DNA of 43,153 bases from Ignavibacteriota bacterium (GTDB lineage: Bacteria > Bacteroidota > Ignavibacteria > UBA10030 > UBA6906), in assembly GCA_003158475.1 (NCBI GenBank), contig PMJR01000039.1, forward strand, positions 1-43,153, read 5' to 3'. How positions within the stretch are numbered: position 1 is the first letter of the stretch; the number at the start of each line of letters is the position of its first letter. The notes below the pieces were generated by a model. The model was not told the origin of the DNA, made no database searches, and saw only the letters and a program-made list of their open reading frames with translations. The translations under genes and the position numbers were made by a program. Below are positions 3,399 through 19,699 of this stretch, piece by piece.

Positions 3399-5021
3399 GT
3401 GTCGAAACAAGACCCTCTTCATAGCCGGAAAACGTGCAGTCTCCGTCTTCTGCCCCTGCCTCTCATCGTCGCACTGTTTATCCACAGTGCCTCTCCCCAG
3501 GAGAAACCAGGCGTCGCCCGACACTTTCCCGTCACCGATCCGAAGAACTTCACGCGCGTTGTGGCCTCCGTGGGCGACGTCGCGATCACGGCCCAGGAAT
3601 TCCTTCTCAGCTATGAGTTCGGCCCCGCGTTCACGAAGCGGGGGAAGGACTCGCGGAAACGTTATCTGGACTTCATGATCAACGAAAAGCTTCTCGCGAT
3701 CGACGCGCGGGATCACGGCCTTCAGAAATCGGCCCGCGTCACGAAGTCGCTTGAAGAGCTCGAGGGGGACATGGCGACCGAGGAGCTCTTCAAAGATGAC
3801 GTCCTCAGCCGCGTTACCGTGACCGATGGCGAGGTCGCGGAAGGGATGAGGGAAGGGAAGATCCACTATTCGATCCGGTGGCTCTTTGCCCCGGGCCGGG
3901 ATGAGGCGTCCTCGCTCGATGGGCTTCTGAAACGGGGCGTCCCGTTCGACACGCTCTTCGAGCGGCAACTTGCCGGGGGGAAGAAGAAGGATGACCGTTC
4001 GATGGCAACGACTCTCTTCAGGCTCAGGCGGGCAAGCCCTGTTCTAGCGTCGGCTGCAGACACACTGCGGGCCGAGAGGAATTCAGCGCCCGTGAAGGGT
4101 CCCGACGGCTGGTACATCATCAGGGTCGATAACGGCTGGCGCGATGTCACATTGAGCGTCACGGAGTCCGTGAAGCTCGAGGACGAGTCCCGGCGCGCTC
4201 TGACACAGGAGAAGTCCGACAGCCTCTCTGACCGCTATGTCCGGAGGATGATGCTTGACAACAATCCCGTTATCATGCGGGATACGTTCGATAAGCTGGA
4301 GGCGTGGCTTGCACGAATCTGGGTCAAGCCCGGGCTCCTCGCCCACTGGGAGATGGCGACCCGCCTCGCTGCAGATTCTGCCGCCGTCTCCCGCATCGAC
4401 GGGTTCGTGAACGATACGCTTGTTGCGCTCAGAGGGGGATGCATGCGTCTGGGGCAATTCCTCTCCTGGTACAGGGCGCGCGACACATACTTTCACCTGG
4501 AAATTGCCGATGAGCAGTCGTTCTTCGTATCCGTGGAGGACATCGTCTGGCGCATGGTGCGGGACAGGCTCCTCGTGGACCGTGCGATCAGGAGGAATCT
4601 GCAGGAGAGGGATCCGGTGAAGAAGCAGCTCCGGTGGTGGGAGGAGAAGATACTTTACGGCGAAGAGAAGATTCTGCTCGGGCGCTCGATCGCGCTGAGC
4701 GATTCCGCCTGCCGTGCCTTCTATGATGCACATGCGCGGGAATACCGGACCGACAGCGGGGCCGTCCGACCCTTCGAACGGGTGAAGGATCAGGTGCGCA
4801 AGGACTGCTACGTATTCGAGTTGAAGAAGAGCATGCTCCACAGGATCATAGCCCTGAAAAGAAAATACCCTGTCGTCGTGAAGAACGACGTCCTGATGAG
4901 CCTTCCCCTTGACGTCGAAGACAATCCGAAGGCGATAGACGTCTATATGGCAAAGAAGGGGGGGACATTCCCCCATCCGGCATTCCCTGTGATAGACTTC
5001 GAGTGGGCGACATGGATGTGA
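3399..5021 (+). CDS. SurA/parvulin-like periplasmic folding protein
   Basis: This is a 540-residue protein with a GTG start, chosen because it precedes a signal peptide (basic N-terminus, then LLPLPLIVALFIHSASPQ) and lies 3 bp after the porV-like stop. The N-terminal part (VASVGDVAITAQEFLLSYE, then a long helix with MINEKLLAIDARDHGL) matches the SurA-N/trigger-factor-like fold of periplasmic chaperones. Around residues 150-245 is a degenerate parvulin rotamase module: G-PFDTLFERQLAGGKK, then APVKGPDGWYIIRV. The last 250 residues are helical and unassigned. I infer that it helps the co-encoded barrel or secreted cargo to fold in the periplasm. Whether the rotamase is active is doubtful, because the usual GGDLGW stretch is missing. 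Confidence 0.7.
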   Translation: MSKQDPLHSRKTCSLRLLPLPLIVALFIHSASPQEKPGVARHFPVTDPKNFTRVVASVGDVAITAQEFLLSYEFGPAFTKRGKDSRKRYLDFMINEKLLAIDARDHGLQKSARVTKSLEELEGDMATEELFKDDVLSRVTVTDGEVAEGMREGKIHYSIRWLFAPGRDEASSLDGLLKRGVPFDTLFERQLAGGKKKDDRSMATTLFRLRRASPVLASAADTLRAERNSAPVKGPDGWYIIRVDNGWRDVTLSVTESVKLEDESRRALTQEKSDSLSDRYVRRMMLDNNPVIMRDTFDKLEAWLARIWVKPGLLAHWEMATRLAADSAAVSRIDGFVNDTLVALRGGCMRLGQFLSWYRARDTYFHLEIADEQSFFVSVEDIVWRMVRDRLLVDRAIRRNLQERDPVKKQLRWWEEKILYGEEKILLGRSIALSDSACRAFYDAHAREYRTDSGAVRPFERVKDQVRKDCYVFELKKSMLHRIIALKRKYPVVVKNDVLMSLPLDVEDNPKAIDVYMAKKGGTFPHPAFPVIDFEWATWM

Positions 5022-6331
5022 ACTCATGTGTCCGCCTTTTCCTCCCCGCCGCACTCTGTGCTGCCGCGCTTGTCGCGGGGTGCAATGAACGGGAGGGTTC
5101 TTCCCCCCGGGCTCCGCGTCCCGTCGTTCTCACGTACTGGCCCGCGCCGAACCCCCAGGAGATACTCCTGGCAGATACGCTCGTCCGGGTCTGGAACCGC
5201 CTTCACCCGGAGATCCTCGTGGAGATGCAGCCGATACCGGTGAGTATTTCGACCGAGGAAGTCCTCCTGGCGGCGATCGCGGGGAAAACGACGCCCGACG
5301 TCTGTTCCAACATCTGGCCGGGAGCGCTGCATGATTACACACAGTCAGGCGGGCTTGTGCGGCTCGATGCCTTCCCGGATTTCGATTCGGTGATGAGCCT
5401 CCGTACCCCGCGGGAGCTTCTTGAGCGGTTCCGTGTGGCCGACGGGCATTTCTACGAGGTGCCGTGGAAAACCAACCCGCTCATGATGTTCTACAACCGT
5501 CGGCTCTTCCATGAAGCGGGAGTCCTGGACGTCCCCTCGACATACGGCGGGTACCTCGCGGCGGCGGAGAAAGTCGTGACGCACAGGTATGAAGGGGGGA
5601 CACCGGACGTCTGGATGGGAGACAGGGATGTCCGGCCGATCTGGTGGCAGCGCCTTTTCGATTTCTATCCTTTCTATATTGCGGCGTCCGGGGGCCGGAC
5701 GCTTCTCGCCGCCGGTCAGCCATCATTCGGCGACAGCTCCGCCGCCGGGGTGTTTGAATTCTTCCGTCAATGTTACGGGAGGAAATACTTCCCGCGAACG
5801 TATTTCCAGGGGGGAGACCCGTTCCTGCTCGAAAAGAAGGCGACACACTTCTCGGGACCCTGGGAGGTGGCGGCGATCCGCAAATTCGCGCCTCAGATGG
5901 ACTTCGGTGTCGCGCCCGTTCCGGTTCCCGACGATCACCACGGACCTGTCTACACGTACGGGGACTACAAAGACATCTCGATATTCAGCACGACGACGCA
6001 TCCGAAAGAGGCGTGGGAGTTCGTGAAGTTCCTTGTTACCGCCCAACATGACCTGCTCCTGCTCAGGATCTGCGACCAGATTCCTGTCAGGGGCGACCTC
6101 CTGGAGAATCCGCTCTTCGCGGCGTATTTCCGGGAGAACCCCGCAATGACCGGGTTCGCCCGCCAGGCGGTCTACACGCGCGGGATGGATGACGCCCCGG
6201 ATCTTAAGGAGATATTTGACGCGATTGCGCAGGAATACGAATCATGCGCCGTCTACGGCCGCGTCAGCGCTCGAGATGCTATCCGTGAAGCGGTGGGCCG
6301 CACAAACCTCATCGTCGAGTGGAACAGATGA
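5012..6331 (+). CDS. Sugar ABC transporter substrate-binding lipoprotein
   Basis: This is a 439-residue extracellular solute-binding protein (family 1, MalE/UgpB type). A lipoprotein signal peptide ends in the lipobox LVAG-C, so the mature protein should be anchored by its cysteine. Further family marks are LTYWPAPNPQE at the mature start, KTTPDVCSNIWPG, YEVPWKTNPLMMFYNRRLF and HPKEAWEFVKFL. Two in-frame starts exist: GTG at 5003 and ATG at 5012. I prefer the ATG because a GAGTGG stretch lies 5 bases upstream of it. The gene overlaps the chaperone gene by 10 bases and the permease gene by 4. It should capture an oligosaccharide released outside or in the periplasm; beta-mannosides are likely, judging from the GH2 and GH130 genes nearby. 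Confidence 0.9.
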   Translation: MDVNSCVRLFLPAALCAAALVAGCNEREGSSPRAPRPVVLTYWPAPNPQEILLADTLVRVWNRLHPEILVEMQPIPVSISTEEVLLAAIAGKTTPDVCSNIWPGALHDYTQSGGLVRLDAFPDFDSVMSLRTPRELLERFRVADGHFYEVPWKTNPLMMFYNRRLFHEAGVLDVPSTYGGYLAAAEKVVTHRYEGGTPDVWMGDRDVRPIWWQRLFDFYPFYIAASGGRTLLAAGQPSFGDSSAAGVFEFFRQCYGRKYFPRTYFQGGDPFLLEKKATHFSGPWEVAAIRKFAPQMDFGVAPVPVPDDHHGPVYTYGDYKDISIFSTTTHPKEAWEFVKFLVTAQHDLLLLRICDQIPVRGDLLENPLFAAYFRENPAMTGFARQAVYTRGMDDAPDLKEIFDAIAQEYESCAVYGRVSARDAIREAVGRTNLIVEWNR

Positions 6332-7221
6332 CCGGATTGAACCGGATACTGCGCAGAGGAAGGACGGGCGACAGGGGAGCGTACTGGTTCATCCTCCCGT
6401 ATGTCATATTCTTCTGCGCATTCGTCGCCTATCCGCTGATTTTCTCGTTTGTCCTGGTCTTCCACCGCTGGAATATCGTCACCCCGATGGAGTGGATCGG
6501 GCTGAAGAATTTCGACCGGCTGATCGGTGACGCGCTGTTCTACCGTTCCGTCCTCAATACGCTGACATTCCTCATTATACACATCCCGCTTCAGGTGGTC
6601 GTGGCGCTCGCGCTCGCTCTCCTCCTCAACTCAGGCGTCCGGGGGAGAGGTTTGTTCAGGGCGCTGTATTTTCTCCCCGTGGTGGTCTCCGGCGTGGCGG
6701 TCACGATCCTCTGGCAGCAGATCTATTCGTTCGATTACGGGATACTGAACAACATTCTTCACGCGGCGGGCATTCCCTCCGTCCCCTGGCTTGTCGATCC
6801 GCGCGTGGCCATGCCCTCGATCGCGATCATGGCCACATGGAAGAATGTGGGGATCTACATCGTCCTCTTCCTGGTCGGACTCCAGAACATACCGCGCGAG
6901 CTCTACGAGGCCGCGAACCTCGACGGGGCGGGCACGTTCAAGCAGTTCCGCTACGTGACTCTCCCGATGCTGAACCCCACGGTGGTCGTCATCGTGGTGC
7001 TCTCGACGATCGGAGGGTTCTCCCTCTTCATCGAGCCGTATGTCCTCACGGGGGGCGGGCCGATGCAGAGCACCCTGTCCGGAATGCTCTACATCTACAA
7101 CCAGGCGTTTTCGTTCGGGCATATGGGGTACGCCGCGACGCTCGGATTCGTCTACGCGCTCGTCATACTCGGGGTCGTCGTCCTCCAGCGTCGCATGATC
7201 GAACAGGACGTGTCATCGTGA
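6328..7221 (+). CDS. Sugar ABC transporter permease (MalF/UgpA type)
   Basis: This is a 297-residue inner-membrane protein with six predicted membrane helices. The cytoplasmic EAA loop, which docks the ATPase, is clear (YEAANLDGAGTFKQFRYVTLP). An ATG at 6328 forms an ATGA overlap with the previous stop and has a GAGTGG-like ribosome site; a GTG at 6319 is an alternative. It pairs with the next gene to form a heterodimeric importer channel served by the lipoprotein at 5012. No ATPase gene lies in this window, so the complex probably uses one encoded elsewhere, as MsmX/UgpC-type shared ATPases do in other bacteria. Confidence 0.93.
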   Translation: MTGLNRILRRGRTGDRGAYWFILPYVIFFCAFVAYPLIFSFVLVFHRWNIVTPMEWIGLKNFDRLIGDALFYRSVLNTLTFLIIHIPLQVVVALALALLLNSGVRGRGLFRALYFLPVVVSGVAVTILWQQIYSFDYGILNNILHAAGIPSVPWLVDPRVAMPSIAIMATWKNVGIYIVLFLVGLQNIPRELYEAANLDGAGTFKQFRYVTLPMLNPTVVVIVVLSTIGGFSLFIEPYVLTGGGPMQSTLSGMLYIYNQAFSFGHMGYAATLGFVYALVILGVVVLQRRMIEQDVSS

Positions 7222-8027
7222 AGAGCGCACTGAAATACGCCGCGCTCCTCGCCGGTGCCGTCGTCTTCGCGTACCCGTTTCTCTGGATGCTGGCGGGCTC
7301 TCTGAAACCCGAGCTCGAGATCGCCAGCCTGAATCTCCTTTCGGGGAACTTCTCCCTTCAGAGCTACGCACAGGTGCTCCTGAAGATCCCGATCGCCAGG
7401 GCGTTCCTGAACAGCATCATCGTCTCGGCGGTGACGACGGCCTCCGTGGTCTTCTTCGGCTCGATGGTCGGCTATGCGCTTGCCAGGCTCCGGTTCCTGG
7501 GGAAGAAGATGCTGTACACGCTCATCCTCTTCACGATGACGATCCCGTTCCAGATTGTGCTGATCCCGCAGTACATACTCATGGTGAAGCTCGGCTGGAC
7601 GGATACCTATCTCGCCCTTGTTGCCCCCGCGATGATGAGCGCGTTCGGCATCATATTGTTCCGCCAGTTCTTCATGGCCATCCCTCAGGCGCTCATCGAC
7701 GCGGCCCGCATCGACGGGTGCTCGGAGCTCATGATCCTCTTCCGGATCATCTGGCCCCTGTCGCGTCCCGTGATCATCACCGTGGCCCTCCTGACGTTCA
7801 TGTCGAACTGGAACGAGGTCCTCTGGCCCCTGATGGTGGTCCGCGAGCAGTCGCTCATGACGATGCCGCAGCTCGTCACGATATTCACGACCGGCGGACA
7901 GGCGGAGACCCAGCTGGGATACCTCCTTGCAGCCGCCACGCTCCTCTCGCTCCCGGTGGTCATCGCTTACGCTTTTTTCCAGCGGTATTTCATCGAGAGC
8001 ATGGCTTCAAGCGGGTTGAAAGGATGA
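7218..8027 (+). CDS. Sugar ABC transporter permease (MalG/UgpE type)
   Basis: This is a 269-residue partner permease. The start is the GTG at 7218, which overlaps the previous stop as GTGA; longer readings upstream of it have no membrane character and overlap the first permease gene. Six membrane helices are visible, starting YAALLAGAVVFAYPFLWML. The EAA loop reads LIDAARIDGCSELMILFRIIWPL, and a typical VALLTFMSNWNEVLWPL stretch follows. It should form the importer channel with the 6328 product. The family transports di- and oligosaccharides in general; the specific substrate is inferred from the neighbouring beta-mannosidase and GH130 genes. Confidence 0.92.
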   Translation: MKSALKYAALLAGAVVFAYPFLWMLAGSLKPELEIASLNLLSGNFSLQSYAQVLLKIPIARAFLNSIIVSAVTTASVVFFGSMVGYALARLRFLGKKMLYTLILFTMTIPFQIVLIPQYILMVKLGWTDTYLALVAPAMMSAFGIILFRQFFMAIPQALIDAARIDGCSELMILFRIIWPLSRPVIITVALLTFMSNWNEVLWPLMVVREQSLMTMPQLVTIFTTGGQAETQLGYLLAAATLLSLPVVIAYAFFQRYFIESMASSGLKG

Positions 8028-10564
8028 ACAAATATCTCGCATCAAGCATCGTGCTCCTGTTCGTCGTTCCGGTCGCGGGACAGGACCGGATCTCGCGCGA
8101 GTTCGGCGGCCTGTACGGTCAGGTCGAGGTGGGAGGTCCGTACGCCGGGGCGGAGTTCCACGGGAGCCGTCCCCTCCCCTCGCGAATCAGCCTGTATGAG
8201 CCGGCCGCGAACAGCCTCGACATGAGCAGGGACTACTGGAAAAGGGGGGAGTCGGCGCCATTCCTTGTCGGCGTCCGGATCAACGGCGGTCCGGCGCGCC
8301 ATGTCGGCCTTGAACCATGGGCGTACACGCTCTCGCCCCACCGCGTCCGGTTTCACAGTGACGACTCCGCGCTCCGGTGGACTTCCACGTACGAATTCCT
8401 GCACACCTTTCCCGGGCTCGTCTGGACGCTTTCCTGTGAAAACCGCACGGGAGACCCGGTCGGCCTCGAGATCTACCTGCAGTGCCGCACGGTGCTCCGC
8501 ACGTGCCAGACGTTTGCCTGGCTGGACAGTGCCTGGACCGAGTACGACGCCGCGGGTGGCTCGCTCGCGGTGCATTTTGATCAGCCCGCTTCGCGCCAGG
8601 CGACCGTTGTCCTCGAGAACCTGGGGGCCCTTCCTGAAGGATGGACATCCGATGCCGCCGATCTCGGGCCCGACTCCCTGAACCCCCGCTGGTTTACGGC
8701 CGGCGGAAATCCCGGAGGGCACACGCTCGCACGGGAAAAACAGGGTAGTCCTGTCGCGGCGTTCCTCTACAGGAAGACCATCGCCCCCTCCGGCCGCTTC
8801 ACCGTGCGTCTCGCAATATTCAGCTCAACCCTTGCAAGGTGGAAACCGGTTGCGAAGGCTCTCCGGACCAGGTGGGAAGGAGACATTGCCGGGTACGACG
8901 CGCTGGTCAGGCGGCAGCTCCTCCTTGCTCCCCGGACGGGGGACGCTTCGGTCGACCGGACGGCGGACTGGGCGTGTGCGCTCCTTGCCGTCAATGCGCA
9001 TTCGCTCGAGGGACGGATCGTTCCGATGCCCTGCCCCGCCGAGTACAATTTCTTCTTCACGCATGATCTCCTCCTGACCGACCTGAGCGCCGTCTGGTTC
9101 GATGCGGCGCGCGTCAAACGGGACCTCGGGGCGGTCGCATCGTGGGCGGAGCGGGGAATCATCCCTCATGCCCGGTACTGGAGGGACGACGGCTTCAAGA
9201 CGGAACTCTGCACGCCCGACAACTGGAACCACCTCTGGTTCATCGAGACCGTCGCGCGCTATCTCCATCACACGGGCGACACGGCGACCGTTGTGCGCCT
9301 CCTCCCGCTGGTGAAGACCAGCCTGGAACAGGTCCTTACGCAGTGCCACAGCGACAGCCTGATGTATGCATTCCGCCCCGATTGGTGGGACATTGGAAGG
9401 AGGGAGGGCCCCCGTTCCTATATCACGGTCCTGGCGATCCGTGCGCTTCGCGACTATCTCTTCCTTTGTTCTTTCATGCACAGGGACCTCACCCGGCTTC
9501 CGGGCTACGAGCTCCTTGCGGACGGGATGGAACGGGCGCTCAACGCGCGGCTCTGGGAGGGCGGGGCCGGATACCTGATGAACGCGAATGGGGACGACCC
9601 GGACTCTCACTTCTACATGGGTTCGCTGATGGGTGCTGTGTACGGCGAAATCCCGGCCGACAGGGCTTCGGTGCTTCTTGCAACCGCCCGTCGGGTGCTC
9701 GTGGACGAACGGCTCGGCGTGCGGAACGTCATGCCCCCCGACTTCAACACTGACTTCGTCCGGGCCTATTTCCGCTTCCCCACGAACGAGGCGGGCGATC
9801 CCTACTTTTATGCGAACGGCGGCGTGTGGCCGCATGCGAACGCGTGGTACGCGCAGGGACTCGTCGTCACGGGGAGGTCCGCGGAGGCGCTCCGGTTCTT
9901 CAAGGCAGTCATGACGCTGGACGGCGTCTCGGCCAGTCCCCTCGGGCAGCCCGCATTCTATGAATACCGGTACGCTGACACTTCGTCCAGCGGTTACGGG
10001 GCGATCGACAAACCGTCTTTCCTTTGGGCGGGGGGGATGTACCTGGGGACACTCTACGCGCTGATGGGGTTCAGAGAAACAGAATGGAACATCGGCTGCG
10101 GCGACGGACAAACCGCCGGTGTCTTCGAATCGGCCGCCGCCAGGGTCGAGTTCGGTCCCGCGAAATCAGTCAGTCTGTCCGGGACCGGGGCACACAGTGT
10201 CGGCATCATTGCCGGCGCTCTTCATGCACCCACCGGCGTCTTTCCCCTGGATTGTATGAAAAGCTCCGGTTGGTCCATCAGGAGAGGGGGGCCGGGAGCG
10301 GCATACCTTGCGGAGGTGAATGCAATCGTCCGTTCCTGCCGTCCCGCGAAGGGGGGCGGATTGCGGGTCGTCCTCTCGTCGTTCGACGGGCACCGCGTGA
10401 CGGCTCGCATCGCGGGGCGATCTACGCCTGCCGGCGCATTCATCAACGGCCGGAGAGTCGAAGACATGAAATCCGAACGATCATCCGATGGTGCCGTCAC
10501 GACGACGCTTATCTTCCCCGGCACGCTGCGGAAGCAGGTCCTTGAAGTCAGGTACTACCGATAA
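8024..10564 (+). CDS. Secreted six-hairpin glycosidase-like protein (GH94/debranching-enzyme-like)
   Basis: The 846-residue protein starts at ATG 8024 (ATGA overlap with the permease). A signal peptide (YLASSIVLLFVVPVAGQ) puts it in the periplasm or beyond. The first 300 residues look like a beta-sandwich. From about residue 310 there is an (alpha/alpha)6-barrel-like part with EYNFFFTHDLLLTDLSAVWFD, RPDWWDIGRREGP (about 455) and NGGVWPHANAWYAQGL (about 600). The last two resemble stretches of GH94 phosphorylases and of the debranching-enzyme C-domain, which keep a catalytic acid near the DW-D segment. A C-terminal beta-rich tail follows residue 690. A secreted phosphorylase would be odd, so hydrolysis seems more likely. 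Substrate unknown; the operon suggests a manno- or glucomanno-oligosaccharide. The fold class is fairly sure, the family is not. Confidence 0.75.
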   Translation: MNKYLASSIVLLFVVPVAGQDRISREFGGLYGQVEVGGPYAGAEFHGSRPLPSRISLYEPAANSLDMSRDYWKRGESAPFLVGVRINGGPARHVGLEPWAYTLSPHRVRFHSDDSALRWTSTYEFLHTFPGLVWTLSCENRTGDPVGLEIYLQCRTVLRTCQTFAWLDSAWTEYDAAGGSLAVHFDQPASRQATVVLENLGALPEGWTSDAADLGPDSLNPRWFTAGGNPGGHTLAREKQGSPVAAFLYRKTIAPSGRFTVRLAIFSSTLARWKPVAKALRTRWEGDIAGYDALVRRQLLLAPRTGDASVDRTADWACALLAVNAHSLEGRIVPMPCPAEYNFFFTHDLLLTDLSAVWFDAARVKRDLGAVASWAERGIIPHARYWRDDGFKTELCTPDNWNHLWFIETVARYLHHTGDTATVVRLLPLVKTSLEQVLTQCHSDSLMYAFRPDWWDIGRREGPRSYITVLAIRALRDYLFLCSFMHRDLTRLPGYELLADGMERALNARLWEGGAGYLMNANGDDPDSHFYMGSLMGAVYGEIPADRASVLLATARRVLVDERLGVRNVMPPDFNTDFVRAYFRFPTNEAGDPYFYANGGVWPHANAWYAQGLVVTGRSAEALRFFKAVMTLDGVSASPLGQPAFYEYRYADTSSSGYGAIDKPSFLWAGGMYLGTLYALMGFRETEWNIGCGDGQTAGVFESAAARVEFGPAKSVSLSGTGAHSVGIIAGALHAPTGVFPLDCMKSSGWSIRRGGPGAAYLAEVNAIVRSCRPAKGGGLRVVLSSFDGHRVTARIAGRSTPAGAFINGRRVEDMKSERSSDGAVTTTLIFPGTLRKQVLEVRYYR

Positions 10565-10579
10565 CAACAATCGATTGCA

Positions 10580-11596
10580 ATGAAAGTCGCCGAACTCGAA
10601 AAACCCGGTTCCCTCCGCGTGAAGTCGAAGCCCCTCCGCGCGCTGGGGGCCGATGAGGTCCTCGTCAAAGTCGAATCGTGCGGTCTGTGCGGAACGGACC
10701 TCCACATCGTCGAAGGGACCTCCCGGTCCACCCCCCCGGTCGTCCTCGGACATGAGTATGCGGGGTACGTCACGGATCCGGGTACGAACCCGAAAGGGGT
10801 CCCCGAAGGAACGCATGTCGCGGTGGACCCCAACATTCCATGCGGGCGCTGTCCTTACTGCAGACGCGGTCTCGTCCATTTTTGCACCGGTCTCCGCGCG
10901 CTCGGCGTGGATATCGACGGAGGGATGGCGGAGTACAGTATCGTCCCTGCGTCACAGCTCTACACGATTCCGCACGGGATGACGGCTGAGGAGAGCATGT
11001 TCATCGAACCGGTCTCCTGTGCCGTGCATGGCATGGACAGGGCGGGGATACGGGCGGGGGATATCGTCGTCATTCTGGGGGGCGGCACGATCGGGCTCGT
11101 GATGCTCCAGCTCGTCCGGCACGGAGGAGCGGCGGCCGTGGTCGTGAGCGAACCGCTGGCGCACAAACGGAAGATTGCCGGTGACCTCGGCGCGTCGCTC
11201 GTCATCGACCCGGCGGGCGATGCACTGCGGCAGGCGGTCATGGACATGAGCGGCATCGGCGCCGATGTTGTGATCGATTGCGCGGGAACCGCGACAACAG
11301 CCCGGGCGGCGATCGATCTCGCACGAAGGGGAGGCACCGTGGTGTTCTTCGGCGTCTGCCCCATGGGCGAAACGATCCCGCTGGAGCCGAATGCCGTCTA
11401 TTTCAGGGAGCTGACGATCGCAGGTTCCTACATTAATCCGTACACGTTTCCGCGCGCCATAGCGCTCCTGAGGGGAGGAGTAGTGCGTGTGGGGCCCCTG
11501 GATGTGCGGGCGTACCCGATCGAAGGTGTGCACGAGGCCCTTGCCTCTCTCCGTGACGGGCGTGCGATCAAAAACATGATCGTGCCCGGCACATGA
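10580..11596 (+). CDS. Zinc-dependent alcohol/polyol dehydrogenase (MDR family)
   Basis: This 338-residue cytoplasmic medium-chain dehydrogenase has catalytic zinc ligand Cys37 in CGLCGTDLH, then His58-Glu59 in GHEYAG. The structural zinc set is Cys88, Cys91, Cys94 and Cys102. A nucleotide-binding turn reads VILGGGTIGLVMLQL, and a conserved IEPVSCAVHGMDRAG segment precedes it. These marks fit the sorbitol/threonine/sugar-alcohol dehydrogenase branch. The start lies 15 bp after the glycosidase-like gene, and the stop overlaps the next ATG (ATGA). In this operon it could oxidise a sugar or polyol released from the imported oligosaccharide, but nothing in the sequence fixes the substrate. Confidence 0.9.
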   Translation: MKVAELEKPGSLRVKSKPLRALGADEVLVKVESCGLCGTDLHIVEGTSRSTPPVVLGHEYAGYVTDPGTNPKGVPEGTHVAVDPNIPCGRCPYCRRGLVHFCTGLRALGVDIDGGMAEYSIVPASQLYTIPHGMTAEESMFIEPVSCAVHGMDRAGIRAGDIVVILGGGTIGLVMLQLVRHGGAAAVVVSEPLAHKRKIAGDLGASLVIDPAGDALRQAVMDMSGIGADVVIDCAGTATTARAAIDLARRGGTVVFFGVCPMGETIPLEPNAVYFRELTIAGSYINPYTFPRAIALLRGGVVRVGPLDVRAYPIEGVHEALASLRDGRAIKNMIVPGT

Positions 11597-12996
11597 ACCC
11601 CTTCGTTCTTCCACTCATGCTCGCGCTCGCCCTGATTCCTTCGGTCCCCCGGGAGGCCCCTGCGGTCAACTTCGCTCACCTCGACCGTCTGACCGAGCGC
11701 GTTTCGCTCGGTGGAGATACGGTGAGCATTGTCCACATCTATGCAAATTATCCGGACTATCGCTGGGTGGCGGCCGCGGAATCCGGCCCCGAAGGGATCG
11801 CATGCGTGGATGACGCTGCCCGCGCGGCCGTCCTGTTCCTGAGGAGCTTTCAACTCCGGGGTGACACGGCGAGCCTCGCGCGTTCGCGCGGGCTCCTCAA
11901 GTTTATCATGCACATGCAGGCCCCGGACGGGGAGTTCTGCAATTTCATGCGGGCCGATCACACGGTCAATGTCTCGGGGAAGACGAGCTTCAAATCGTTC
12001 GGCTGGTGGGCGGTGCGTGGGCTCTGGGCGATGGCGATGGGAGGAAGGATATTCAGTGACCGGGATCCCCTGTTCGCCCGCGAGTTGCTCGGACGCGTCT
12101 CACTCATGGTCCCTTTGGTCAGCGCATCGCTTAAGGAATTCGGCAGCACAAGGAACGTCAAAGGGTACAGGATCCCGCGATGGCTCCTCTACGAATCCGG
12201 TGCAGACGTGACATCGGAGCTTCTCCTCGGCCTGCTGGAATACCAGAAGGCCCGCGGGGATGACTCGCTCGCTCCGGTGATGAGGAAACTCGCACATGGG
12301 CTCCTCGTGATGCAGGACGGGGACGGGAAAACGCCACCGTACGGACTCCACCGGTCCTGGGAGACGATCTGGCACATGTGGGGAAACGGGCAGACTCAGG
12401 CTCTCAGCACCGCGGGTCTGATGCTTCACGACACCACAATGATAGCGTCCGCGGTACGCGAGGCCAGGGGATGGTACGGCCGCCTGTTGATGGAAGGGTT
12501 CCTCAAGGAATACGACGTCTCAGGCGCCTCCCCGGCCCTAGAGTACGAGCAGATTGCCTACGGGGTACGGCCGATGGCTGTCGGGCTCCTCAGGCTGTAT
12601 GAAGCGACGGGAGACCGCGATTACCTGCTGATGGCCGGCCTCGCCGCCTCCTGGCTCACCGGAAACAATCCCGCGCGACGGGCGATGTATGACCCGGCCA
12701 CCGGGAGGTGCTACGACGGTATCAGGGATTCGCTCGCGGTGAACATGAATTCGGGGGCGGAGTCAACGATCGAAGCGCTCTTTACTCTCCTCGAGGTGGG
12801 ACACTATCCGGCTGCGGCACGTTTGCTCGCGTGCAGGAAAGTGTCTGCGGGGACGGCCGGGAGATTCTCGTACGCGGTCTTCCGCGGAGAGCCGGACGCC
12901 GAAGTGACGCTCGCGAGAGAGCTCGCGACGGGCCGCCTCTCCCTGTACGAAGGGGAAGGGAGCCGGGCGTTCTGCAGGAGGGAACATATCCCATGA
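11593..12996 (+). CDS. Secreted alpha-helical, six-hairpin-like protein of unknown function
   Basis: This is a 467-residue protein with a signal peptide (FVLPLMLALALIPSV), so it is exported. It consists of paired helices with recurring Trp, Gly and Tyr, suggesting an (alpha/alpha)6 toroid as in many glycosidases, lyases and sugar epimerases. Notable segments are ACVDDAARAAVLFLRSF near residue 75, QAPDGEFCNFM near 110, LHRSWETIWHMWGNGQTQAL near 255 and TGNNPARRAMYDPATGRCYDGI near 355. The DDAARA stretch recalls a DD-ARA motif that I associate with helical-barrel proteins found beside GH130 and glycosyltransferase genes; that link comes from memory and is weak. ATGA overlaps occur at both ends. 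It is probably a carbohydrate-active enzyme of this operon; I cannot name its reaction. Confidence 0.6.
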   Translation: MNPFVLPLMLALALIPSVPREAPAVNFAHLDRLTERVSLGGDTVSIVHIYANYPDYRWVAAAESGPEGIACVDDAARAAVLFLRSFQLRGDTASLARSRGLLKFIMHMQAPDGEFCNFMRADHTVNVSGKTSFKSFGWWAVRGLWAMAMGGRIFSDRDPLFARELLGRVSLMVPLVSASLKEFGSTRNVKGYRIPRWLLYESGADVTSELLLGLLEYQKARGDDSLAPVMRKLAHGLLVMQDGDGKTPPYGLHRSWETIWHMWGNGQTQALSTAGLMLHDTTMIASAVREARGWYGRLLMEGFLKEYDVSGASPALEYEQIAYGVRPMAVGLLRLYEATGDRDYLLMAGLAASWLTGNNPARRAMYDPATGRCYDGIRDSLAVNMNSGAESTIEALFTLLEVGHYPAAARLLACRKVSAGTAGRFSYAVFRGEPDAEVTLARELATGRLSLYEGEGSRAFCRREHIP

Positions 12997-15900
12997 AGAG
13001 AAACGTCGTGTCACGCGCCCTCGCGGCGATTCCTGTCGCCCTCCTCCTTTCCTTTGCCGCATCCGCGGGACTGTCGCAGCAGGTTGCCATCGGCAGGATA
13101 GACCAGATGCCGGATGCCCCTGTCCCGTACCTGATGAGGAACTGGAAGGCCGTGGCGGCCTCTTTCGATTCCATTGCGTTCGACGTGTCCAGGACAGGGC
13201 TGTACCTCCCCCTCATCCAGCTCTATTCCAACACCGTCAATTATCCGGGACAGGGGAGTTTCCGGATACAGAGCTATGTCGGCTCCCCCACGAGCGGCGG
13301 GGAAGCGGTCACCTGTCTGCCGGCCCTCGTGGGGGCGAAGCTGGTCGGCATTGACAAGAGCAATCAGGCGGGAACGAACTGGGTCGCGATGGCCGAGGAG
13401 TGGTTCAACAGCGGGAATGGACAGAATGTGTACCTCAACTACCCTTCATCCGGGACGGGGGATGACTGGTGGTACGAGACGATGCCGAACGTGTTCGCAT
13501 TCCAGATTGCGAGCCTCTACCCGTCGACGGGCGACTTCCGCAACCGAATCCCCGTTGTGGCCGGCAGGTGGCGCGCGGCGGTCATGGCCATGGGAGGAAG
13601 CACGAAGCCCTGGAGCCTTGCGAATGTGAACCATCGTGCGTTTAATCTTATAACGATGAACCCGAACGACACGTATCCCCCCGAGCCCGAAGCCGCGGGT
13701 GCGATTGCCTGGATACTGTACATGGCGTACGTCACGACAGGAAACCAGGACTTCCGTATCGGGGCCGAGCTAGCCCTCGAATCCCTCCTCGCGTATCCGG
13801 CGAACCCCTCGTATGAGCTCCAGCTCCCGTACGGTACGTACATGGCAGCCAGGATGAACGCCGAGATCGGGACGGCGTACGACATTCCGAAGCTGATGAA
13901 CTGGTGCTTCCCGGACGGGAACGGCACGCTCCGGCAATGGGGCGCGATCGTCGGGAACTGGGGGGGGGACGATTGCTCGGGGCTGATCGGTGAAAGCGGT
14001 ACGGGGAACGATTACGCTTTCTTCATGAACGGTGTGGAGCAGGCGGGCGCTCTCGTCCCTCTCGTGCGCTACGACGACCGTTTTGCCCGCGCCATCGGCA
14101 AATGGGTGCTGAATGTTGCGAACGCTTCGCGGCTCTTCTATGCGGATTTACTTCCTGATGATCACCAGGACAGCCCGGTCTGGGCCCATCAGTTTGATCC
14201 GAACTCCTCTATCGCGTACGAATCGATGCACCAGTTCAGCCTTGCCGATGGCACTACCTCCCCCTTCGCGACGGGGGACGCGAAAAACGGTGGTTGGGCC
14301 CAGACGAATCTCGGGCTCTACGGAGCGGCACACGTCGGGATACTCGGGGGGATTGTCGACTCGACGAACGTGCGCAAGATCCTCCGGCTGGATCTCCTGC
14401 GGACCGATTATTTCCACGCGGCTGCGTATCCCACGTATCTTTACTTCAACCCCTTCGCCTCGGATACCGCTGTAACGCTCACCCTCGGGAGCGGCGCGCA
14501 CGATCTGTACAACACCGTGACGAAGACATTCCTCGCCCAGGGTGTGACCGGCACGGTGCCGGTCACCGTGCCGGCAAATTCCGCGGTCGTTGTTGTCGTC
14601 GCCCCGGCGGGAGGAACCATGTCGACTGATCTGGACAGGACCCTCATCAACGGCGTCGTGGTGGACTACCGGAACGGCTCTTCGGCCAACCACCCGCCGA
14701 GGATCAAGAGCCTCTCCCCCGATTCCTCCCGCGTGCTCGTTCGCACTGCCGTCAACTTCTACTGCACGGCGGCCGACAGGGACAATGATGTTCTCACATA
14801 CTCCTGGAAAGTCTCAGGCGGGTCTGTCACCGGCAGCGGTCCGGTGGTGTCGTACGCGGCGCCGGATTCCGCGGGTCTGTACACGGTCACGTGCACTGTC
14901 GACGACGGGCACGGGGGAAAAACAAGCAGTGCCGATACACTCCAGGTTGTCGCGGTCATAAATCATCCCCCCGTGATAAAAAAGATTGGGGCGCTTCCCC
15001 GGAAGGTGGACCTCGGAGCGACATCCGCGCTTTCGTGCCTGGTGAGCAACCCTGACACCAGCCTCCTCACGTACACGTGGAGCGCCTCTGCGGGGTCCCT
15101 GAGCGGGACCGGCTCCGCCGTCACCTGGCATGCCCCCTTTGTCGCCGGTAATGACTACCTCCGGTGCACCGTGGATGACGGGAAAGGAGGGAGCGCCACG
15201 GACAGCCTGGCACTCGAAGTGCGGGATCTTTCGGTTCCGCAGACAGGCGACCTCGTTGCGTTCTATCCCTTCAGCGGGAATGCAACCGACGCCGGCGGCC
15301 ACGGCCATAACGGGACCGTCAACGGGACCGTCCTGACGGCCGACCGTTTCGGACACCCGGCGAGCGCGTACGCATTCGACGGTTCGACGGCGTCCATCGT
15401 CGTGCCGAACGATACCGGGCTCAATTTTCAGAACGCGATCACGGTGAACGTCTGGGTGAAGCCCACAGCGCTCTATGGCGCGCGCGAACAGTACATCATC
15501 TCCCATGGCAACTGGCAAAACCGCTGGAAGCTCTCCATCACCCCGGGGACCAATAAGCTCCGCTGGACCGTGAAGCCGGCGGGCACGCCGGGCCAGCCAA
15601 AGGACCTCGACTCCGCCTCCCCACTGGTCCTGGACAGCCTGATGGATGTGACCGCCCGGTACGACGGGACGGACATGGAGATCTATATCAACGGTGTCCT
15701 GGACTCATTCACCCCTTTTTCCGGACTTATCAACATGACCTCCTATGCGCTCACGATGGGGCAGGACCTCCCGTCGGACAACCAGTATGACTTCAACGGC
15801 GTCCTCGACGATATCCGCATCTACAACTACGGCTTAACGCTCGGGCAGATTTCGGCACTGTATGATATCACGAACGGCGTAGAATCCTTCGGCCCGACTC

Positions 15901-16181
15901 CTCTCCCTTCTGTGTTCAGGCTCTTTCAGAATTATCCCAACCCCTTTAATCCTTCGACGACGATCTCCTTCGCCGTCCCCGGTTCCAGAGCGTCACGGTC
16001 CCTCTCGCTCCGCGTCTATGACCTTCTCGGCCGCGAGGTGGCAACACTGGCGAACGGGACGTTCCATGGAGGCCTTTTCTCCGTGGTCTGGAACGCGGGT
16101 TCGCTTTCCAGCGGCGTGTACATCTGCCGGCTGGAGTCCGAAGGGGCGACCCTCGTTCAAAAAATGGTTCTGATGAAGTAA
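12993..16181 (+). CDS. T9SS-sorted surface protein: helical catalytic-like domain, two Ig/PKD domains, LamG domain
   Basis: The 1062-residue protein starts at ATG 12993 (ATGA overlap) and has a signal peptide (ALAAIPVALLLSFAASAGLSQ). Residues 30-550 are Trp/Tyr-rich and look like another helical barrel (DDWWYETMPNVFAFQ, GNWGGDDCSGLIGESG, GNDYAFFMNGVEQAGALVP). A short beta region follows. Two Ig/cadherin-like repeats start with NHPPRIK (566) and NHPPVIK (657). A concanavalin/LamG domain occupies about 753-955 (LVAFYPFSGNATDAGG, VNVWVKP, LDDIRIYNYGL), probably for carbohydrate binding. Residues 970-1062 are a T9SS type-A sorting domain (FRLFQNYPNPFNPST, GREVATL, SSGVYICRL). This is the likely surface enzyme feeding the operon's importer. 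The catalytic-like domain matches no family I can name. Confidence 0.8.
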   Translation: MKRNVVSRALAAIPVALLLSFAASAGLSQQVAIGRIDQMPDAPVPYLMRNWKAVAASFDSIAFDVSRTGLYLPLIQLYSNTVNYPGQGSFRIQSYVGSPTSGGEAVTCLPALVGAKLVGIDKSNQAGTNWVAMAEEWFNSGNGQNVYLNYPSSGTGDDWWYETMPNVFAFQIASLYPSTGDFRNRIPVVAGRWRAAVMAMGGSTKPWSLANVNHRAFNLITMNPNDTYPPEPEAAGAIAWILYMAYVTTGNQDFRIGAELALESLLAYPANPSYELQLPYGTYMAARMNAEIGTAYDIPKLMNWCFPDGNGTLRQWGAIVGNWGGDDCSGLIGESGTGNDYAFFMNGVEQAGALVPLVRYDDRFARAIGKWVLNVANASRLFYADLLPDDHQDSPVWAHQFDPNSSIAYESMHQFSLADGTTSPFATGDAKNGGWAQTNLGLYGAAHVGILGGIVDSTNVRKILRLDLLRTDYFHAAAYPTYLYFNPFASDTAVTLTLGSGAHDLYNTVTKTFLAQGVTGTVPVTVPANSAVVVVVAPAGGTMSTDLDRTLINGVVVDYRNGSSANHPPRIKSLSPDSSRVLVRTAVNFYCTAADRDNDVLTYSWKVSGGSVTGSGPVVSYAAPDSAGLYTVTCTVDDGHGGKTSSADTLQVVAVINHPPVIKKIGALPRKVDLGATSALSCLVSNPDTSLLTYTWSASAGSLSGTGSAVTWHAPFVAGNDYLRCTVDDGKGGSATDSLALEVRDLSVPQTGDLVAFYPFSGNATDAGGHGHNGTVNGTVLTADRFGHPASAYAFDGSTASIVVPNDTGLNFQNAITVNVWVKPTALYGAREQYIISHGNWQNRWKLSITPGTNKLRWTVKPAGTPGQPKDLDSASPLVLDSLMDVTARYDGTDMEIYINGVLDSFTPFSGLINMTSYALTMGQDLPSDNQYDFNGVLDDIRIYNYGLTLGQISALYDITNGVESFGPTPLPSVFRLFQNYPNPFNPSTTISFAVPGSRASRSLSLRVYDLLGREVATLANGTFHGGLFSVVWNAGSLSSGVYICRLESEGATLVQKMVLMK
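14544..14574 (+). other. Strong overlapping hairpins inside the T9SS-sorted protein gene
   Basis: A perfect palindrome (11-base arms, one central base) covers 14544-14566: GTGACCGGCAC on the left, GTGCCGGTCAC on the right. A second pairing, CCGGCACGGTG (14548-14558) with CACCGTGCCGG (14564-14574), has a 5-base loop. The two exclude each other. They code for a TVPVTVP-type stretch at the end of the helical domain. Confidence 0.7.
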
Positions 16182-16185
16182 GCAT

Positions 16186-18636
16186 ATGAAAACACTTGAT
16201 CTGGGCGGAGCGTGGAAATTCAGGGGACTTAAGAAGAACGGCTCGCCGGGCGCCCGTCCGAGGAAAGCCCTCCGTTGGCTTGATGCGTCTGTGCCGGGGA
16301 CCGTCCATACCGATCTCATGGCATGCGGCCTCATCCCCGACCCTTTCTACAGGATGCAGGAAAACGATGTGCAATGGGTCGACGGTGTGGCATGGGAGTA
16401 CCGGAAGGAGTTCACCGTTTCCCGCGCCTTCCTCGAAGAGCGGTCGATCGACCTTGTGGCGGGCGGTCTCGACACGTATGCGACGATCCGGTGCAACGGC
16501 CGCATCGTCGGATCGACCGCGGATATGTTCGTCGAGCACCGTTTCCCGCTCAAACGCTTTTTGCGTGAGGGAAGGAATGTCCTCGGCGTGCTCTTCGATT
16601 CCCCCGTCATCCGCGCGAAACGACTCGAAAAGGAAAACGGCCGGCTCCGCGTCGCTCTTGAACCGCATCGCGTCTATGCCCGGAAGGCACAGTACTCATT
16701 TGGCTGGGACTGGGGGCCGAAGCTCACAACTTCGGGGATCTGGCGGGCTATCTCCCTCGAAGCCTATTCCGGAGGCCGTCTCGTGGATCCGTCGGCGAAA
16801 ATTGTCTCCGTGACGGGGGAGTGGGCTGTCGTCCGGTTTTCGGCGAGTGTCCGTCCTCCGGGCCGGCGTCCCCTCTCGCTTCGCCTCTCCCTCGGCGGCC
16901 CCGACCGTGCGGCCGAGTACACGCAGGAGGTGCGCAAGGGAGAAGCAGAACTCACGGTCCGCGTTCCGGATCCCCATCTCTGGTGGCCGAGCGGTCAAGG
17001 TGAACAGCCCCTCTACACGGCGGTCTTCACGCTCGTTGCGGGGGAGGAAGTTCTCGACGAGCGGCAGGTCAGGTTCGGCATCCGGAGCGTCCGGCTCCTC
17101 GAGAACAGGGACGCCGGGGGAAAGTCGTTCATCGTGGAAGTGAACGGCCGCAAGATCTTCTGCAAGGGGGCGGACTGGATACCCGCCGACAGTTTCATCC
17201 CGCGGATCGCGCCGTCGACATACGACCGCCTCCTCCGGATGGCGAGGGATGCCCACATGAACATGCTCCGTGTGTGGGGGGGAGGGTTCTACGAACAGGA
17301 CATCTTCTATGACCTGTGCGACCGGCTCGGCCTCATGGTATGGCAGGATTTCATGTTCGCGTGCGGTGAGTACCCGGAAGATCCCTGGTTCCTCCGCCAG
17401 GTACGCGACGAAGCGGAGAAGGCCGTCGCGCGGCTCCGGAATCATCCGAGCATCGTCCTCTGGTGCGGCAACAACGAGTGCGAGTGGATCTTCTGCACCG
17501 GGAATCCCGGGAAGACCCCCGACGATATGATGGGTGCGAAGATATTCCGGGAGATCCTCCCCTCCGTGGTCGGGAAACTCGACGGCATGCGTCCCTACTG
17601 GAGGAGTTCCCCGTTCGGCGAGGGATTCCCGAATGACGAATCAAACGGGAACCATCACCAGTGGAATGTCTGGAGCCTCTGGAAGGACTATCCGGAGTAC
17701 GAAAAGGATAATGCCAGGTTTGTCACCGAGTTCGGTTTTCAGGGGCCGGCCAATCTGGCGACACTTCGGGAAGTGACACTCCCCCGGGACAGGGACCCTC
17801 AGAGCGAGGTGCTCGAACACCACAACAAGCAGGTGGAGGGGACGGAAAGGCTCATCCGATTTATCGCGTCACACCACCGTCTGCCGGAGACGCTTGAGGA
17901 TTTCGTCATGAAGGGGCAACTGGTGCAGGGGGAGGCGCTCAAATGTGCAGCCGAGCACTGGCGAAGGCGGAAATACGGAACCGCAGGTGTCCTCTTCTGG
18001 CAGTTGAACGATTGCTGGCCCGTCAATAGCTGGTCGGTGATCGACAGCCAGCTCCGGCCCAAGGCCGCGTACTATTTCGCGCGCCGGTTCTTCTCTCCCG
18101 TGCTTGTGAGTATCAGGCGGACCGTTGCCGGCCTGGAAGTCTGGGTCACCAGCGACCTCCCTGTCCCCCTCCGGGGAACGCTCGAGGTTTCTCTCGTCTC
18201 GTTCGGGGGAAAGACTGTCCTGAAGGAGAAGGATCTCCTCCGTATGAAGTCCGACGCATCTGCCAGGGTCCGGACGGTGAAGTGGGAGATTCTCCGCGCG
18301 TATGACCTGCGGCAGTACTACCTGCTTGTCCGTTTCGCGGCGGAGAACGGGTTGCTGAGCGAGAACAGGCACTACTTTGTGGAGCCGAAACACATTGATC
18401 TTCCGGATCCCGGGCTCTCCTGGTCGGTTGCACGGACCGGGGGGATGTCGTATGCGGTCACGCTCCGGGCGAAGAAGCTTGCGCGTGATGTCTGTCTGGA
18501 GGTGGAGGGGGCGGACGTGGAGTTCGATGACAATCTGTTCGATATCGACGGCGGCTCGACGAAGACCGTTTACTGCAGGTCGGAAATTTCCCCCTGGCTC
18601 TTGAGGAGAAGACTGATCGTCCGCTCTCTCCGCTGA
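16186..18636 (+). CDS. GH2 beta-mannosidase
   Basis: This 816-residue enzyme has no signal peptide and so acts in the cytoplasm. It removes terminal beta-linked mannose from short mannosides. An N-terminal jelly-roll starts LGGAWKFRG, with EYRKEFTV further on. The barrel carries CKGADWIPADSFIPR, then LRVWGGGFYEQDIFYDLCD and VWQDFMFACGEYP, which are typical of bacterial and lysosomal beta-mannosidases. The acid/base is Glu431 in WCGNNE and the nucleophile is Glu515 in VTEFGFQG; both residues are present. The length is normal for the family. The gene starts 4 bp after the surface protein and is the last of the operon; its stop is 7 bp from that of the convergent GH130 gene. Together these two genes give the best clue to the operon's substrate. 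Confidence 0.94.
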   Translation: MKTLDLGGAWKFRGLKKNGSPGARPRKALRWLDASVPGTVHTDLMACGLIPDPFYRMQENDVQWVDGVAWEYRKEFTVSRAFLEERSIDLVAGGLDTYATIRCNGRIVGSTADMFVEHRFPLKRFLREGRNVLGVLFDSPVIRAKRLEKENGRLRVALEPHRVYARKAQYSFGWDWGPKLTTSGIWRAISLEAYSGGRLVDPSAKIVSVTGEWAVVRFSASVRPPGRRPLSLRLSLGGPDRAAEYTQEVRKGEAELTVRVPDPHLWWPSGQGEQPLYTAVFTLVAGEEVLDERQVRFGIRSVRLLENRDAGGKSFIVEVNGRKIFCKGADWIPADSFIPRIAPSTYDRLLRMARDAHMNMLRVWGGGFYEQDIFYDLCDRLGLMVWQDFMFACGEYPEDPWFLRQVRDEAEKAVARLRNHPSIVLWCGNNECEWIFCTGNPGKTPDDMMGAKIFREILPSVVGKLDGMRPYWRSSPFGEGFPNDESNGNHHQWNVWSLWKDYPEYEKDNARFVTEFGFQGPANLATLREVTLPRDRDPQSEVLEHHNKQVEGTERLIRFIASHHRLPETLEDFVMKGQLVQGEALKCAAEHWRRRKYGTAGVLFWQLNDCWPVNSWSVIDSQLRPKAAYYFARRFFSPVLVSIRRTVAGLEVWVTSDLPVPLRGTLEVSLVSFGGKTVLKEKDLLRMKSDASARVRTVKWEILRAYDLRQYYLLVRFAAENGLLSENRHYFVEPKHIDLPDPGLSWSVARTGGMSYAVTLRAKKLARDVCLEVEGADVEFDDNLFDIDGGSTKTVYCRSEISPWLLRRRLIVRSLR

Positions 18637-18643
18637 ACGTCCT

Positions 18644-19699
18644 TCAACGCTCTCCGGCGTAGCGGGCGATCTCATCGGCGGCGATCATCGCGCCGCTGAC
18701 CACGCTGTCGGCCCCCGCATAGGGGAGGTACAGGTCATTCTTGTAGAAATAGCAGCCGCAGCCAAAGACAACGTTGTTCACGCCGAGGTCTGCATCTCCC
18801 TGCGTCTCCGACGGTGTTTCGGGGCTCATCAGAGGCTCGTCCCTCCGTGTAATGAACCCCTTCACCCGGGGGTCGCCGATCGCGATCGCGAGTTCGTACA
18901 CACGCGTTCCGTCGACTTTCCTGTTCCCGTTGTGATAGATGATGAGGTAGCGGCCGTCCGGGAGGAGCAGGGGCGGCGGCCCTCCTCCGGTCCATGTGTC
19001 CGCATAAAGCGGGTTCCTCAGCGGCTTCATCAGCAGCCCGCGTGTCTTCCAGGGACCGAGAACGTCGTTGCTTTCCGCCCAGTGAATCGACATCCGGCCC
19101 GCCCCTTCCATCGGCCTGTGGAACATTATGAATTTGCCGTCGATCTTTCCGGGGAACAGCATGGCGTTCTTGTTGTCGATGCCGTTGAAATCCCCTTTCA
19201 GCAGCCCGTGCTTTTCCCACCGGAGGAAATCCCGGGTGCTGGCCACCGCGATCCGGACGCGGTTGTTGGGCTTGCCGGAGTGATACGCCGTGTAGAATGC
19301 GTAAAATCTATCCCCCGCCCGGGTGATCCGGGCGTCCTCGACCCCGAGGTCCTCGTATGGCTGGTCGGGAAGGATGACAGGCTTGTCGTGCCTTGCCAGC
19401 AGATCGAGTCTGGGGCTGAGGACCGCCAGTCCCATCGACGACCGGGTATGGTCGTAGTCTTCCGTCCGGGCGCCCTGTGCCCGGTAGAGGAGAAAGCAGA
19501 GTCCTTCCTGCTCCATCAGCAGGTTTTTTACCGGTCCATCGAACGGGAGGGACGGCACGATGGCCTTGATCAGGGGGCGCTCATCGACGAACGCGCAGGC
19601 GGGATTGAATGCGACCCGGTTTTCCCAGGGATGATCCAGGATCCGTCTCAGAATCGGGTTCCCGCCGTGCAGCCGCTGGACGCGGGGGGTTGAGGTCAT
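18644..19699 (-). CDS. GH130 beta-mannoside phosphorylase/hydrolase
   Basis: This 351-residue protein is a five-bladed propeller enzyme of family GH130, which attacks beta-1,2- or beta-1,4-mannosidic bonds, often with phosphate to give mannose-1-phosphate. Family marks are GGNPIL, FNPACAFVDE, LGVEDARITR (catalytic Asp region), NKNAMLFPGKIDGKFIMFHRP and WTGGGPPPLLLPDGRYLIIYH. The absence of a signal peptide indicates the cytoplasm. An AAGGA ribosome site lies 8 bases upstream of the ATG. It converges on the GH2 gene and probably has its own promoter in the 160-bp gap shared with the methyltransferase gene. Whether it is a phosphorylase or one of the hydrolytic members depends on phosphate-binding residues that I cannot align by eye. 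Confidence 0.92.
   Translation of the reverse strand: MTSTPRVQRLHGGNPILRRILDHPWENRVAFNPACAFVDERPLIKAIVPSLPFDGPVKNLLMEQEGLCFLLYRAQGARTEDYDHTRSSMGLAVLSPRLDLLARHDKPVILPDQPYEDLGVEDARITRAGDRFYAFYTAYHSGKPNNRVRIAVASTRDFLRWEKHGLLKGDFNGIDNKNAMLFPGKIDGKFIMFHRPMEGAGRMSIHWAESNDVLGPWKTRGLLMKPLRNPLYADTWTGGGPPPLLLPDGRYLIIYHNGNRKVDGTRVYELAIAIGDPRVKGFITRRDEPLMSPETPSETQGDADLGVNNVVFGCGCYFYKNDLYLPYAGADSVVSGAMIAADEIARYAGER

Follow-up and report, generated by a model that had tools for sequence, protein, structure and literature searches.

GH130 phosphorylases that act on beta-1,2-mannosides are known. The beta-1,4-mannan pathway pairs a disaccharide epimerase, active in the cytosol, with a GH130 phosphorylase adjacent to an MFS transporter. 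Alpha/alpha barrels place their active sites just before the inner helices; GH127 enzymes use a Cys nucleophile, and AGE epimerases use conserved catalytic His residues. In Thermoanaerobacter, an ABC importer and GH130 phosphorylases (Teth514_1788/1789) occur in one cluster (PMC4264767). The gut enzyme Uhgb_MS is described as a mixed-linkage mannoside synthase with products that include beta-1,2-mannobiose (PMC8950772). Catalytic candidates in MmpH, a methylmannose polysaccharide hydrolase, are Glu262 and Asp47/Asp50 (PMC9883506).

The stretch of DNA analyzed here (the window) comprises 43,153 nucleotides of contig PMJR01000039.1 from an Ignavibacteriota bacterium. Like the Thermoanaerobacter cluster, it combines an ABC importer with GH130. 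That cluster as described differs in having a GH5 gene and two hypothetical proteins, with no comparable barrel family described. The operon in the window runs from the importer to a GH2 gene, with the gene under study just before the latter, and is followed by a convergent GH130 gene:

5003 to 8027, forward strand: ABC sugar importer, with a solute-binding protein (5003–6331) and permeases (6319–7221 and about 7210–8027)
8024 to 10564, forward strand: GH94-like protein with a signal peptide (PF17167, 35 bits, cut-off 27)
10580 to 11596, forward strand: zinc-dependent alcohol-dehydrogenase-type oxidoreductase (PF08240/PF00107)
11593 to 12996, forward strand: second secreted alpha/alpha-barrel protein, a relative of the uncharacterized YPO2471 (7tem; Foldseek TM 0.79/0.91, 35% identity)
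12993 to 16181, forward strand: gene under study, 1062 aa, open throughout in translation
16186 to 18636, forward strand: GH2 beta-mannosidase (Pfam; 640 bits to the solved beta-mannosidase 5n6u)
18644 to 19699, reverse strand: GH130 protein (PF04041, 115 bits; PDB 7fip, 111 bits, and 9fj8, 108 bits)

Permease models match 6837–8027, and the solute-binding protein was assigned from sequence and context. The importer is conserved beside the gene under study in most ABC-type contexts. The GH94-like gene starts at the ATG at 8024, not at the listed ORF start of 7718, and its product has a weak match to chitobiose phosphorylase 1v7v (27.6 bits); this suggests either a hydrolase or a fold of the phosphorylase type located outside the cytosol. 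The 11593–12996 protein has weak Pfam matches only and is conserved in most ABC-type operons, with invariant residues that include C-x-DD and NxNSGAEST. The two operon barrels are not recent duplicates, as profile comparison shows no homology between them. The GH2 protein has no visible signal peptide and is probably the intracellular exo-enzyme of the same operon. Upstream, genes for a protein with a T9SS-like C-terminus (248–2338), a PorV/UPF0164-like protein (2367–3395) and a PPIase-domain protein (Rotamase_2; 3399–5021), all on the forward strand, travel with the ABC part of the locus in many relatives, suggesting dedicated surface assembly.

The initial annotation placed a surface protein at 12993–16181, and this gene is real. 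Its ATG and the stop codon of the preceding gene overlap by 4 bp, a ribosome-binding-like site (AGGAGGG) lies just 5', and most of 42 loci conserve the product over nearly its whole length (43%–83% identity). The product is composed of the following parts, all on the forward strand, of which residues 29–557 are referred to as the N-domain:

12993 to 13076, forward strand: signal-peptide-like N-terminus, residues 1–28 (MKRNVVSRALAAIPVALLLSFAASAGLS), read by eye
13077 to 14360, forward strand: helical (alpha/alpha)6-type barrel, residues about 29–456 (AlphaFold2 model, with the boundary taken from its secondary structure)
13167 to 14408, forward strand: candidate catalytic or sugar-binding acids D59, E104, D158, E275, E410, D429 and D472 (51-sequence alignment)
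14361 to 14663, forward strand: beta-sandwich closing the N-domain, residues about 457–557 (model secondary structure)
14688 to 15215, forward strand: two PKD/Ig-like repeats, residues 566–651 and 672–741 (PF18911, 41.7 bits; PF17963; PF22352)
15378 to 15854, forward strand: LamG/concanavalin-A-like lectin domain, residues 796–954 (PF13385, 80.2 bits, cut-off 27.6)
15933 to 16169, forward strand: T9SS type-A sorting domain, residues 981–1059 (PF18962, 31.6 bits, cut-off 27; TIGR04183, 34.7 bits, cut-off 23)

A conserved QQ(I/V) directly follows residues 1–28, and Q30 is invariant throughout a 35-member alignment. The protein carries both the signal peptide (by eye) and the C-terminal sorting domain above cut-off that characterize T9SS type-A cargo. 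The T9SS tail is matched about a hundred times in the host genome, which makes export by this route plausible. Among the glycosidase candidates of the operon this is the only one with such a tail, in agreement with its earlier choice as the best candidate for the extracellular step. The N-domain had been described as Trp/Tyr/Gly-rich over residues 30–550. Trp and Tyr are indeed raised (2.6% and 5.1%, versus 1.3% and 2.7% in other window ORFs), and the domain is Asn-rich as well; Gly is barely higher (9.8% versus 8.6%), and the domain ends near residue 557, not 550. Of the modules said to follow it, the LamG domain and T9SS tail were recovered, and the supposed sugar-binding Ig domains are PKD repeats according to Pfam and NCBIfam.

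Structure prediction and a fold search, both proposed in the initial annotation, yielded a barrel model with only remote (alpha/alpha)6 relatives. AlphaFold2, run on the 35-member alignment, gave a confident model (pLDDT 94, pTM 0.94) in which helices give way to a beta-sandwich at about residue 456; this bears out the helical barrel read from the sequence. A Foldseek search of the PDB returned 19 chains with E values of 0.001 or less, all of them alpha/alpha-barrel proteins (GH146/GH127, AGE/cellobiose 2-epimerase and YPO2471). Among the matches listed, identity is at most 15% and query-normalized TM at most 0.41. The predicted fold resembles solved (alpha/alpha)6-barrel glycosidases at remote similarity, and its best structural neighbors are carbohydrate-active alpha/alpha barrels. 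A viral structure library gave remote barrel matches only. The neighboring barrel protein at 11593–12996 served as a control: its match to YPO2471 emerged immediately, showing that the method detects relatives where they exist.

The best Foldseek E values (8e-6) belong to the GH127/GH146 beta-L-arabinofuranosidases (HypBA1, Bll3HypBA1), which likewise have a barrel followed by beta-sandwich material. They differ in that TM is 0.31–0.40 over the query, identity is about 10%, and the N-domain has neither a PF07944 match nor an invariant Cys. MmpH (7qsj) has the best target-normalized TM among the matches listed (0.60) and is also an (alpha/alpha)6 barrel acting on a mannose polymer, but it is mycobacterial, shares 10% identity and acts on a methylated mannose polysaccharide. 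AGE/cellobiose 2-epimerase folds (target-normalized TM about 0.5) share the barrel and an association with GH130 in mannan pathways; the N-domain protein is unlike them in being secreted and in lacking an invariant His. YPO2471 is a clear relative of the neighboring gene product and only a remote fold neighbor of the N-domain (TM 0.40/0.51).

Sequence searches placed the N-domain in no family. The window N-domain matched zero Pfam families at E ≤ 1, and the 35-member set produced scattered chance-level matches only against the 2025–2026 copies of Pfam and NCBIfam. No relative was found among PDB sequences with a 35-sequence profile, and PHROGs gave no match. Fragment matches to STT3, DnaJ and class A beta-lactamase in the Pfam, NCBIfam and PDB profile searches were at chance level and were rejected. 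No Pfam model for GH9, GH76, GH88, GH94, GH15 or other alpha/alpha barrels exceeded its gathering cut-off on the N-domain, and neither Pfam nor NCBIfam profiles for GH26, GH5, GH2 or other classical beta-mannan enzymes matched it. The N-domain alignment was also compared by hhalign with freshly built alignments of three barrel families. GH127/GH146 was rejected (probability 1.4%; no PF07944 hmmscan match in the 35 members), as was AGE/cellobiose 2-epimerase (7.5%, with a single hairpin aligned; no PF07221 match). The positive control, AGE against GH127, gave 83%. GH125 exo-alpha-1,6-mannosidase was rejected as well (0.2%; no PF06824 match), in a comparison that is weak because neither the GH127 nor the AGE alignment detected GH125. 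The strong profile match to a characterized family that was looked for in Pfam, NCBIfam, PDB profiles and hhalign did not occur, and the earlier failure to assign the domain to a known glycosidase or lyase family is borne out for Pfam, NCBIfam, PHROGs and PDB sequences. Judged with the model, the N-domain is most likely a sequence family of its own, outside Pfam, NCBIfam and the PDB, on the known (alpha/alpha)6 fold.

The seven acids listed above are strictly invariant in 51 aligned homologs, with D158 in a DWWYE motif, and many Trp, Tyr and Asn residues are invariant too. Eight of these homologs are short forms that lack both the LamG domain and the T9SS tail. Together they make up one deep clade, and several short forms have a lipoprotein-like N-terminus. 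No Cys is invariant in the 35- or 51-sequence alignment. The same is true of His, for which the best-conserved position, H447, is Ser in two of 35 sequences and fails a 96% test in the 51. The lack of an invariant Cys or His argues against GH127-type chemistry and AGE epimerization. By our own assignment of inner helices from the model, E104, D158, E233 and E275 lie just before four of the six presumed inner helices, a modest excess (binomial P about 0.02). Inner helix N-ends are modestly richer in invariant residues (12/54 versus 70/541), and because this enrichment is only modest the case rests on the acids, not on general conservation.

A similar gene set recurs around homologs in Ignavibacteria, other Bacteroidota, KSB1 and Marinimicrobia. 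The family is present in at least 14 of 296 sampled Bacteroidota genomes, a lower bound because runs of N occupy the expected gene place in four otherwise syntenic loci (L080, L082, L084 and L087). GH130 is carried by 14 of the 14 family genomes, compared to 113 of 296 overall (Fisher P = 8e-7). It lies within about 6 kb of the family gene in 13 of the 14 (0.18 expected within 10 kb), and in the remaining genome the locus is apparently split between contigs. An ABC or SusCD importer lies alongside, often together with a GH2 beta-mannosidase. The distribution of the family across close relatives is patchy, with 25 of 100 genomes carrying it. Two import designs share the family and GH130, namely ABC operons and HTCS-SusCD-GH130-MFS loci. 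The short form belongs, in Bacteroidia and Cytophagales, to GH130-MFS-barrel loci, and the majority of these also have SusC, SusD and a regulator. Long and short forms occur together within one locus in two cases (L041 and L066). The family is absent from importer-free GH130-GT4 clusters (L081, L085 and L086), which ties it to the uptake of external glycan.

The window GH130 has its best scores to beta-1,2-mannobiose and 1,2-beta-oligomannan phosphorylases, and a long GH130 type also scores best to beta-1,2 enzymes. The GH130 of a Marinimicrobia operon matches 1,2-beta-oligomannan phosphorylase with 368 bits. Near relatives of Uhgb_MS adjoin family members in Bacteroidia, where the GH130 scores 534 bits against it. 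One 300-aa type is a near tie between beta-1,2 and beta-1,4 enzymes (172 and 167 versus 156 and 154 bits). Given this near tie, and since every GH130 tested falls below the NCBIfam equivalog cut-offs, we infer the substrate linkage from best scores. A plain beta-1,4-mannan operon is weakened as an explanation by the mostly higher scores to beta-1,2 enzymes, the 300-aa type being close to a tie. Mannans and glucomannans had been proposed as substrates; the neighboring GH130s point to beta-1,2-linked mannosides instead of that general class. From these scores, beta-1,2-mannan would be a better first test substrate than general mannans. GH13 alpha-glucosidase-like genes lie directly beside family members in two Bacteroidia-type loci (L066:16311–17945 and L074:6752–8377), and alpha-glucose may also be part of the natural substrate or of a mixed glycan.

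Based on sequence and the predicted model, we consider it probable (about 0.6) that the gene encodes a T9SS surface glycoside hydrolase of a new family, built on an (alpha/alpha)6 barrel and cutting a beta-mannosyl glycan that is most likely beta-1,2-linked. The candidate catalytic N-domain would be exported by T9SS, attached to the surface, and cut a beta-mannosyl polymer outside the cell through carboxylate acid/base catalysis by members of the seven invariant acids, while the PKD and LamG modules would hold the enzyme to the surface or the substrate. Uptake of the released oligosaccharides would then fall to the linked ABC importer in the Ignavibacteria type and to SusCD and MFS in the Bacteroidia type. 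Inside, GH130 phosphorylases would split them, with the GH2 beta-mannosidase contributing where present. A more specific version, held only tentatively, is that this is a new GH family of surface endo-beta-1,2-mannanases that supplies the missing polymer-cutting step upstream of GH130, and that two clades, a surface T9SS form and a short lipoprotein-like form, may share the work. If true, it would fill a gap, as no enzyme for extracellular beta-1,2-mannan cutting was found in the searchable literature, and would add a new CAZy family. It would also provide a tool for analyzing beta-1,2-mannans, for example the ones in Candida walls, and would mean that uncultured Ignavibacteria and their relatives use beta-1,2-mannan-type glycans.

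Other activities on a mannose-containing glycan would fit parts of the same evidence. The protein could be an exo-beta-mannosidase, or its target could be a different bond, alpha-glucosyl or alpha-mannosyl, within a mixed glycan containing beta-mannose as well. The adjoining GH13 genes in L066 and L074 and the mixed-linkage activity of Uhgb_MS (PMC8950772) agree with this, and the co-occurrence of long and short forms in L041 and L066 would fit a division of labor. We regard it as rather unlikely: none of the Ignavibacteria-type operons examined showed a GH13, while nearly all have GH130, and a T9SS and LamG layout is more usual in enzymes that act on polymers. Somewhat less likely still is an ordinary new member of a recent CAZy family still lacking a solved structure as well as any model in Pfam or NCBIfam. 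New alpha/alpha-barrel families have been added in recent years; however, neither the 35-sequence PDB profile nor the 2025–2026 model collections gave a relative, annotations of the plasmid-borne relatives go no further than "LamG-like jellyroll fold" or "hypothetical," and the open-licence literature searched yielded nothing relevant on an enzyme cutting beta-1,2-mannan internally or on a GH130-linked unknown.

The barrel could instead be a non-catalytic binding or scaffold module, a pseudo-enzyme that presents polymer at the cell surface. Its LamG and PKD modules would suit such a role, and the catalytic one is a prediction, but seven acids and many Trp, Tyr and Asn residues are invariant across a divergent family, and the extracellular step would be left without any other T9SS-tailed enzyme in the operon, which makes this improbable. 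Least probable is that the protein epimerizes sugars like the AGE/cellobiose 2-epimerase-type enzyme of the beta-1,4-mannan pathway. The GH130-MFS-alpha/alpha-barrel gene order in Bacteroidia and the AGE folds among the structural neighbors recall that pathway, yet the N-domain has no invariant His, its hhalign probability is far below that of the AGE-GH127 control, and the protein is secreted, with a signal peptide and T9SS tail or, in several short forms, a lipoprotein-like N-terminus.

A GT4 glycosyltransferase gene (L026:845–2779) lies beside a GH130 pair, and the C-terminal part of its product matches the 11593–12996 family. GT4 adjoins GH130 pairs in L026, L081, L085 and L086, including some genomes without any importer. 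By analogy with the Thermoanaerobacter cluster, these GT4-GH130 clusters are possibly a module for beta-mannan storage or synthesis. The locus of the putative surface hydrolase is plasmid-borne in two cultured Persicobacteraceae, Persicobacter psychrovividus (pPP5, L066) and Aureibacter tunicatorum (pAT2, L067), and both are practical sources for biochemistry.
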